DNA from: Sporomusaceae bacterium
Lineage (GTDB): Bacteria; Bacillota_C; Negativicutes; Sporomusales_B; UBA7701
DNA length: 12,624 nucleotides
Reading direction: 5' to 3'
Assembly: GCA_022839045.1 (NCBI GenBank)
Contig: JALHDI010000111.1
Coordinates: 1 to 12,624 of the forward strand
Each line of letters starts with the position of its first letter. The stretch's first letter is position 1. The translations under genes and the position numbers were made by a program. This document shows, piece after piece, positions 3,647-4,348 of the stretch. The notes under the pieces are model-generated. The model worked only from the letters and a program-made list of their open reading frames with translations. It was not told the origin of the DNA and did no database searches.

Positions 3647-4348
3647 TTACCATTTCATCCAGTCCAGCTCTTCGGTGCTGGTGGTGGCGCGGTCGCGGTA
3701 GATGCTGAAGATCAGGGCCAGACCGACGGCGACCTCGGCGGCGGCGACCGTTATCGTGAACACGGCGAATAGCTGGCCGACGAACGCGTCGGGAGTGATG
3801 AAGCGCGAGAAGGCCACCATGTTCAGATTGACGGCGTTGAGCATCAACTCGATCGACATTCTCGCCAGGATGATGGCGCCGATCATCGCCGCCAGCAGCA
3901 GGACGGCCGCCGCCTCGAAGGCGATGGCGAACTCGCCGAGCAGTAGACCGGCGATCGCGGCCGCCGTTTCCCCGGGCGCCTGTTTGGTCACCACCGGCCA
4001 GTCGGTCGCCAGCACGGCCGTCAACATACCGGCGGCAAGGAGCGCGACGACGACGAGTAGGCCGCGTCCCATGCGGTTGGGCGGGTTGCTGTTCTTCATG
4101 TCCCCCTTCTGGGTGAGCATGACGCCGATGACGACGATGACGGCGACGGCGCCGTTGTAGACCAGTAGCTGGACGGCGGCCAAAAAGTCGGCGGCCAGCA
4201 GGATATAAAGCCCGGCCACGCCGATAAAGGTGACCGCGAGCAGGAGGGCGCTATGAACGAGGTTGCGTTTGAATACGACCCCGGCGGCGGCGGCCAGCAC
4301 GACGGCCGCCAGCAGATAGAACGCGGCGACTGGTACCCAGCTAGCCAA
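3647..4348 (-). CDS. nuoJK: NuoJ-NuoK fusion, NuoK first helix missing
   Basis: A single 233-codon frame covers two complex I membrane subunits. Residues 1 to about 163 are NuoJ: five hydrophobic segments, the Y64-containing VYNGAVAVIVVIGVMLT helix, and the last helix around 141-163 ending IGAIILAR. From residue 164 the sequence is NuoK, beginning in the middle of NuoK helix 2 (MSIELMLNAVNLNMVAFSR) and keeping both conserved proton-path glutamates (E167 and E205) and the usual end ELDWMKW. The NuoK N-terminus and TM1, about 30 residues, are absent, as are any NuoJ stop and NuoK start. No separate nuoK exists before nuoL. The start is TTG with AGGGGGG upstream; it overlaps the end of nuoI by 8 bases. 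The frame is open across the junction (about 3857-3860). It could be a natural fusion, an in-frame deletion or an assembly error; sequence alone cannot decide. Confidence 0.9.
   Translation of the reverse strand: MASWVPVAAFYLLAAVVLAAAAGVVFKRNLVHSALLLAVTFIGVAGLYILLAADFLAAVQLLVYNGAVAVIVVIGVMLTQKGDMKNSNPPNRMGRGLLVVVALLAAGMLTAVLATDWPVVTKQAPGETAAAIAGLLLGEFAIAFEAAAVLLLAAMIGAIILARMSIELMLNAVNLNMVAFSRFITPDAFVGQLFAVFTITVAAAEVAVGLALIFSIYRDRATTSTEELDWMKW

Follow-up and report, generated by a model that had tools for sequence, protein, structure and literature searches.

An apparent NuoJ-NuoK fusion in a Sporomusaceae complex I operon is very probably an ordinary gene pair lacking 115 bases

We examined a 12,624-nucleotide stretch of Sporomusaceae DNA (contig JALHDI010000111.1 of assembly GCA_022839045.1; the whole stretch is called the window below) in which NuoJ and most of NuoK are read from one open frame. 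On comparison with related genomes, we regard this frame as an ordinary nuoJ-nuoK pair that, in this sequence alone, lacks a run of 115 consecutive bases, a reading to which we assign a probability of about 0.93. The missing stretch runs from just past the last NuoJ helix to the early part of NuoK helix 2, and its loss puts two genes that normally overlap out of frame into a single frame, giving the appearance of a fusion. We infer that the loss is recent or artefactual and does not represent an adaptive fusion.

Results

One open frame joins NuoJ to a truncated NuoK

The host operon encodes a complex I of the 11-subunit type without nuoEFG and comes from a Sporomusaceae/Selenomonadales relative. 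Its order is nuoA-B-C-D-H-I-(J-K)-L-M followed by the start of nuoN, it is otherwise regular, and no nuoE, nuoF or nuoG lies between the nuo genes of the window. The features are as follows (L001, L096 and the P-numbered proteins are the relatives described below).

3647..4348, minus strand: NuoJ residues 1-163 plus the last 70 NuoK residues in one open frame (open reading frame call, Pfam)
3860..4348, minus strand: nuoJ part, 163 codons, with the NuoJ domain kept to its end (PF00499 profile, comparison with P0001 and L001)
3647..3859, minus strand: nuoK remnant, 70 codons and a stop, comprising the rest of helix 2, helix 3 and the C-terminus (comparison with P0241-P0244 and L001)
3860/3859 (plus-strand bases), minus strand: break point, between R163 and M164 (alignment to L001 and L096)
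1705..3633, minus strand: nuoL, intact, 642 aa, downstream, the same length in L001 (Pfam)
176..1708, minus strand: nuoM, intact, one codon shorter than that of L001 (Pfam)
start at about 179, running off the window, minus strand: nuoN (alignment to L001)
4341..4745, minus strand: nuoI, intact, 134 aa, upstream, its end overlapping the nuoJ start (4Fe-4S domains)
4748..5755, minus strand: nuoH, intact, 335 aa (Pfam, comparison with L001, in which the frame has a possible start 7 codons earlier)
5817-6917, minus strand: nuoD, open (Pfam)
6922-7392, minus strand: nuoC, open (Pfam)
7382-7909, minus strand: nuoB, open (Pfam)
7900-8256, minus strand: nuoA, open (Pfam)

The frame at 3647..4348 on the minus strand begins with TTG and encodes 233 aa. 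Pfam assigns residues 21-161 to Oxidored_q3 (NuoJ, PF00499; E 1.2e-33, 116.4 bits against a curated cut-off of 33.2, covering positions 2-146 of the 146-position profile) and residues 148-233 to Oxidored_q2 (NuoK, PF00420; E 2.7e-16, 59.5 bits against a cut-off of 26.1). With the NCBIfam models, none of those for NuoJ reached its cut-off on the fused protein (best score, 121.7 of 174), one for NuoK did (NF004320, 70.9 against 57), and the remaining NuoK models listed fell below theirs (for example NF004322, 92.7 against 128). The best-matching solved chains were 6hum_G for the NuoJ part and 6hum_E for the NuoK part.

These results bear out the observation, made earlier from the sequence alone, that a single frame leads out of the final NuoJ helix and into helix 2 of NuoK and keeps 70 NuoK residues, among them both glutamates (E167 and E205, equivalent to E38 and E76 of the intact L001 NuoK) and the C-terminus. 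That sequence-only reading had also placed the join in the middle of helix 2; helix 2 is indeed where it falls, but early, at residue 35 of a hydropathy segment spanning residues 29-51. The junction lies on codon boundaries and preserves the frame. An ordinary NuoK has three helices over about 100 residues; the part present here is 70 residues long (164-233), the first 34 residues of the intact protein, with helix 1, being gone. The remnant has no start of its own, and the start codon that relatives use falls within the 115 missing bases. On the NuoJ side, the final 10 residues and the stop found in relatives are absent.

Two sister genomes carry 115 additional bases at the junction

The best locus of the genome scan was L001, from the metagenome-assembled genome (MAG) Selenomonadales bacterium SL1-B47. 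It aligned to the window with 89.8% and 90.1% identity on the two sides of the break and carried exactly 115 extra bases there. Locus L096, from genome G076, aligned at 89.4% and 90.2% and likewise had exactly 115 extra bases at the same point. The alignments break at 8765/8766 of the reverse complement, which corresponds to 3860/3859 of the window. Between L001 and L096 the missing bases agree at 107 of 115 positions. Of the 20 bases that flank the junction on each side, 19-20 match the relatives on the left and 18 on the right.

Within the 115 bases lie the nuoJ end with its stop and the opening part of nuoK, from its start through helix 1 and the KRN loop into helix 2; they also contain GGAGGGG, which we read as the nuoK ribosome site. 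The nuoK of L001 starts with GTG at 9485, ahead of the nuoJ end at 9504, and the two genes overlap in different frames. Because nuoJ and nuoK normally overlap out of frame, and because 115 equals 3 × 38 + 1, the loss leaves both in a common frame in the window.

An in-frame deletion of roughly 100 bases had been among the possibilities proposed for this locus. A loss is what the comparison supports, although its size is 115 bases, which is not a multiple of three. It had been stated in advance that sister genomes with about 100 extra bases, a nuoJ stop and a nuoK start at this point would speak against a genuine fusion, and this is what both L001 and L096 contain. The principal suggestion, that an atypical fusion subunit lies next to the proton path, is not supported: the relatives examined have nuoJ and nuoK in separate frames, and there are full-length NuoK proteins identical over the 70 retained residues. 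Of the three explanations that had been offered, the two sister genomes favor a deletion or an assembly error over a natural fusion subunit.

Intact homologues exist and no second fusion was found

Among database proteins, P0001 is an intact NuoJ of 173 aa with 4 differences from the window in 163 residues. We compared 19 intact NuoK proteins (P0241-P0259, the top of the 120 listed). P0241-P0244 are 104 aa long, match the window at every one of the 70 retained residues and have a 34-residue N-terminus preceding them; P0247, also intact, shows 3 differences in 70. P0001 and P0247 probably lie side by side, both whole, in a close strain, since the same longest contig of 44,785 bases is listed for both.

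A natural fusion would be expected in more than one lineage or throughout a clade, and with both partners whole. Of 562 confirmed candidates in the genome scan we kept the 80 best, and in none of these loci did NuoJ and NuoK share a frame, the nuoJ frame stopping before nuoK ends; L081-L088, which repeat four of the counted genomes, stand outside this count. When 200 genomes of the class of L001 were searched, 50 gave matches and 150 did not, and NuoJ and NuoK were separate matches in all 50, leaving no fusion in any matching genome. Some of these matches overran the boundary between the two genes, but only through stop codons (for example G189, G177 and the NuoK match of G127), and in four class genomes with a NuoJ frame open for 240-363 aa, NuoK lay in another frame. 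As for the partners being whole, helix 1 of NuoK and some of its helix 2 are absent from the window.

A database search for other single-frame NuoJ-NuoK proteins had been proposed as a check, and it returned none among the best 120 matches of either search that we ran. The first, in which the 7995 candidates sharing the most words were scored, gave no two-domain NuoJ-NuoK protein among the best 120 of 721 matches. In the second, which used residues 160-233 and covered proteins of about 128-408 aa, the best 120 of 835 matches all had the NuoK domain only, according to precomputed Pfam assignments, and a rescan of six of them found only a NuoK domain, at the C-terminus. These 120 listed NuoK proteins (P0121-P0240) are 129-220 aa long, with one of 392 aa, and are longer than usual; no NuoJ domain appears in their Pfam column, and their N-terminal extensions may be genuine or may reflect wrong start calls. 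In a literature search confined to open-licence papers, no title or abstract opening among those listed described a NuoJ-NuoK fusion.

The break has no repeat, microhomology or hairpin

A microhomology resembling ATCCTG had been suggested as the source of a deletion. There is none at the break, where 0 bases are shared in the comparison with either L001 or L096. No repeat near the break in L001 fits either; the nearest, an imperfect 12-base repeat (10 of 12 matching), has a spacing of 124 and not 115. A plain slippage deletion is therefore not indicated, and since the break has neither shared bases nor a long repeat, a simple misassembly by repeat collapse is not supported.

We also considered a hairpin as the cause of the loss. 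The fold of L001 9430-9630 was unremarkable relative to shuffled sequences (z 0.56, with 145 of 200 shuffled versions equally or more stable), and this candidate was rejected. An Rfam scan of the window returned nothing at gathering scores.

The operon shows ordinary constraint

All 15 differences from L001 in the 70 kept codons of nuoK are synonymous, with 0 non-synonymous; in the nuoJ part, the 160 codons compared show 33 synonymous and 10 non-synonymous changes. The remaining nuo genes that were compared, eight in number (A, B, C, D, H, I, L and M), are open, free of frameshifts and have pN/pS values of 0.02 to 0.20. Values of this kind are those of normally constrained genes and give no sign of decay or of adjustment to an altered shape. 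This would be consistent with a loss that is young or that is absent from the organism, although the test is a weak one, as most of the divergence predates the loss.

In the four relatives first checked, which included the closest, and in G076, nuoJ and nuoK gave one match each. Two nuoJ and two nuoK matches were found in 2 of the 50 matching class genomes.

Other differences between the window and its relatives

At 9482-9568 the window has about 87 bases where L001 (596-3848) has a block of about 3.25 kb. The block sits between genes for a glycosyltransferase of family 9 and a ketopantoate reductase and encodes an M20 peptidase and a protein with a glutamate-synthase domain; G076 has about 3.2 kb at the same place, homologous over the part compared. 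With its less similar, gappy edges, this looks like a natural difference in gene content.

A break in synteny falls between about 10799 and 11320. The side with the glycosyltransferase and nuo genes matches contig C3 of G076 and contig C31 of G001. The side at 11320-12538, which carries zinc-finger and omega-like genes, matches contig C10 of G076, and its zinc-finger part matches contig C15 of G001; all of these matches are internal to their contigs. Either a natural rearrangement or a chimeric contig would account for the break.

The last part of the frame at 11788-12171 corresponds to the C-terminal half of RNA polymerase omega (Pfam Rpb6, profile positions 23-53 of 53), and the sequence upstream of that half is unrelated and partly AT-rich. 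Its counterpart on C10 of G076 is a 76-codon frame that reads as a complete omega, and the gene in the window looks frameshifted or disrupted. In L001 itself, the family 9 glycosyltransferase at 12-683 leaves the frame of the window copy after a one-base difference near 423, which may be either an error or a pseudogene in that MAG.

Predicted consequences for NuoK

If translated, the frame would yield a predicted NuoJ carrying a NuoK remnant that lacks helix 1 and the cytoplasmic KRN loop. The helix 2 segment has also lost 6 of its 23 residues (17 are kept), and by hydropathy it is no longer a separate segment but merges with NuoJ helix 5. An AlphaFold model, which is of low confidence (mean pLDDT 64.4) and carries little weight, draws a single helix over residues 141-172 that runs from NuoJ helix 5 across the junction into the first residues of the NuoK part. 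The alignment supplied to AlphaFold had 33 rows, namely 32 NuoJ sequences and the window protein, all relatives thus being NuoJ only. A mixed alignment of NuoJ and NuoK was set aside, as it misplaced the NuoK rows on NuoJ columns.

An excerpt of the literature on the Escherichia coli enzyme describes a closed-state pairing of NuoK R25 with NuoJ E84 (PMC10212512), and another excerpt names the helix 2 glutamate of E. coli NuoK as E36 (PMC13324432). In our alignment, made by spacing from E36, the R25 position would correspond to K27 of the L001 NuoK, inside the missing stretch. Were the loss real, it would most likely disable NuoK and leave complex I unable to assemble or to couple.

Discussion

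An ordinary nuoJ-nuoK pair with 115 bases missing from one sequence may have come about in two ways, and we lean slightly towards an artefact of assembly, amplification or data handling over a true null allele. In the former case, for which we see roughly an even chance, the bases are missing from the assembled sequence only and the organism has a normal nuoJ and nuoK; the cause would be amplified reads that are chimeric or carry a deletion, the closing of a gap, or later data handling. That both L001 and L096 carry the bases, that the join occurs in none of the relatives examined and that the kept parts show no relaxed constraint all fit this explanation. So does the absence of the fused protein from the best 120 of 721 matches in a search of 5.8 billion proteins; it would be expected at the top of that ranking if the collection included it, although the contig of the window may itself be absent there. 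The synteny break at 10799-11320 and the disturbed omega-like gene would suit an uneven contig, although both have natural explanations too. An artefact has to contend with a junction that offers no repeat to make an assembler skip the stretch and with eight other nuo genes in which no frameshift was found.

The same loss could instead be a real and very recent deletion allele of one strain, disabling a complex I whose absence is tolerated because the enzyme is needed only conditionally. We consider this a serious possibility, if one short of even odds. It accords with the clean junction and closely matching flanks, and a second copy is possible in the class, as the 2 of 50 matching genomes illustrate. 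An analogy comes from another anaerobe, Desulfitobacterium hafniense, where, according to an excerpt of PMC11238625, inhibitors of the 11-subunit enzyme halt or slow growth on lactate or pyruvate, while with H2 strain DCB-2 was unaffected and strain TCE1 slightly affected. If an enzyme of this type is hardly or not needed with H2, a null allele could survive under some conditions. On the other hand, the single nuoJ and nuoK of the closest relatives mean that such a deletion would probably hit the only copy, and the rest of the operon is without decay. A point against the main explanation is that the join keeps the frame, for which the odds are roughly one in three.

We regard it as very unlikely that the frame encodes a functional NuoJ-NuoK fusion with a reduced number of helices. 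Both NuoK glutamates and the C-terminus are retained, and by our reading of the positive-inside rule the NuoJ end and the start of NuoK helix 2 are both cytoplasmic, so that helices 2 and 3 could keep their orientation in the absence of helix 1. These points are outweighed by the lack of a second example in the loci, genomes or best-listed proteins searched, by the existence of intact NuoK proteins identical over the 70 residues and by the state of helix 2, which keeps 17 of its 23 segment residues, merges with NuoJ helix 5 and in the low-confidence AlphaFold model is drawn into the one helix that crosses the junction. The position of R25, partner of NuoJ E84 in the E. coli account excerpted from PMC10212512, would be lost as well. 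We hold it scarcely credible that the strain makes the fused subunit, that the end of NuoJ helix 5 replaces the cytoplasmic turn of NuoK and that complex I is active although NuoK has neither helix 1 nor the basic loop. Proof of a functional version, should it ever come, would test the need for NuoK helix 1 and the loop in complex I coupling. The loss of 115 bases from an ordinary pair carries a caution of its own: a fusion on a single contig, resembling a new membrane-arm subunit, was explained once two sister genomes were compared.

Fusions among related proteins are known. In the excerpts available, NuoC and NuoD are fused as NuoCD in E. coli and some other bacteria (PMC10212512), MrpA combines a NuoL-like N part with a NuoJ-like C part (PMC7419157), and group II Mrp antiporters have MrpA and MrpB fused (PMC9568556). 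The frame in the window is like these in that units separate elsewhere are read in one frame. It differs in that, as far as the excerpts go, the established fusions are common to groups of organisms, whereas here a helix has been lost and the join is present in no relative examined. The closest likeness is to the separate nuoJ and nuoK of L001 and L096, which stand in the same gene order as in the window and from which the window differs by lacking the 115 bases that cover the nuoJ end and the opening of nuoK, from its start through helix 1 into helix 2.
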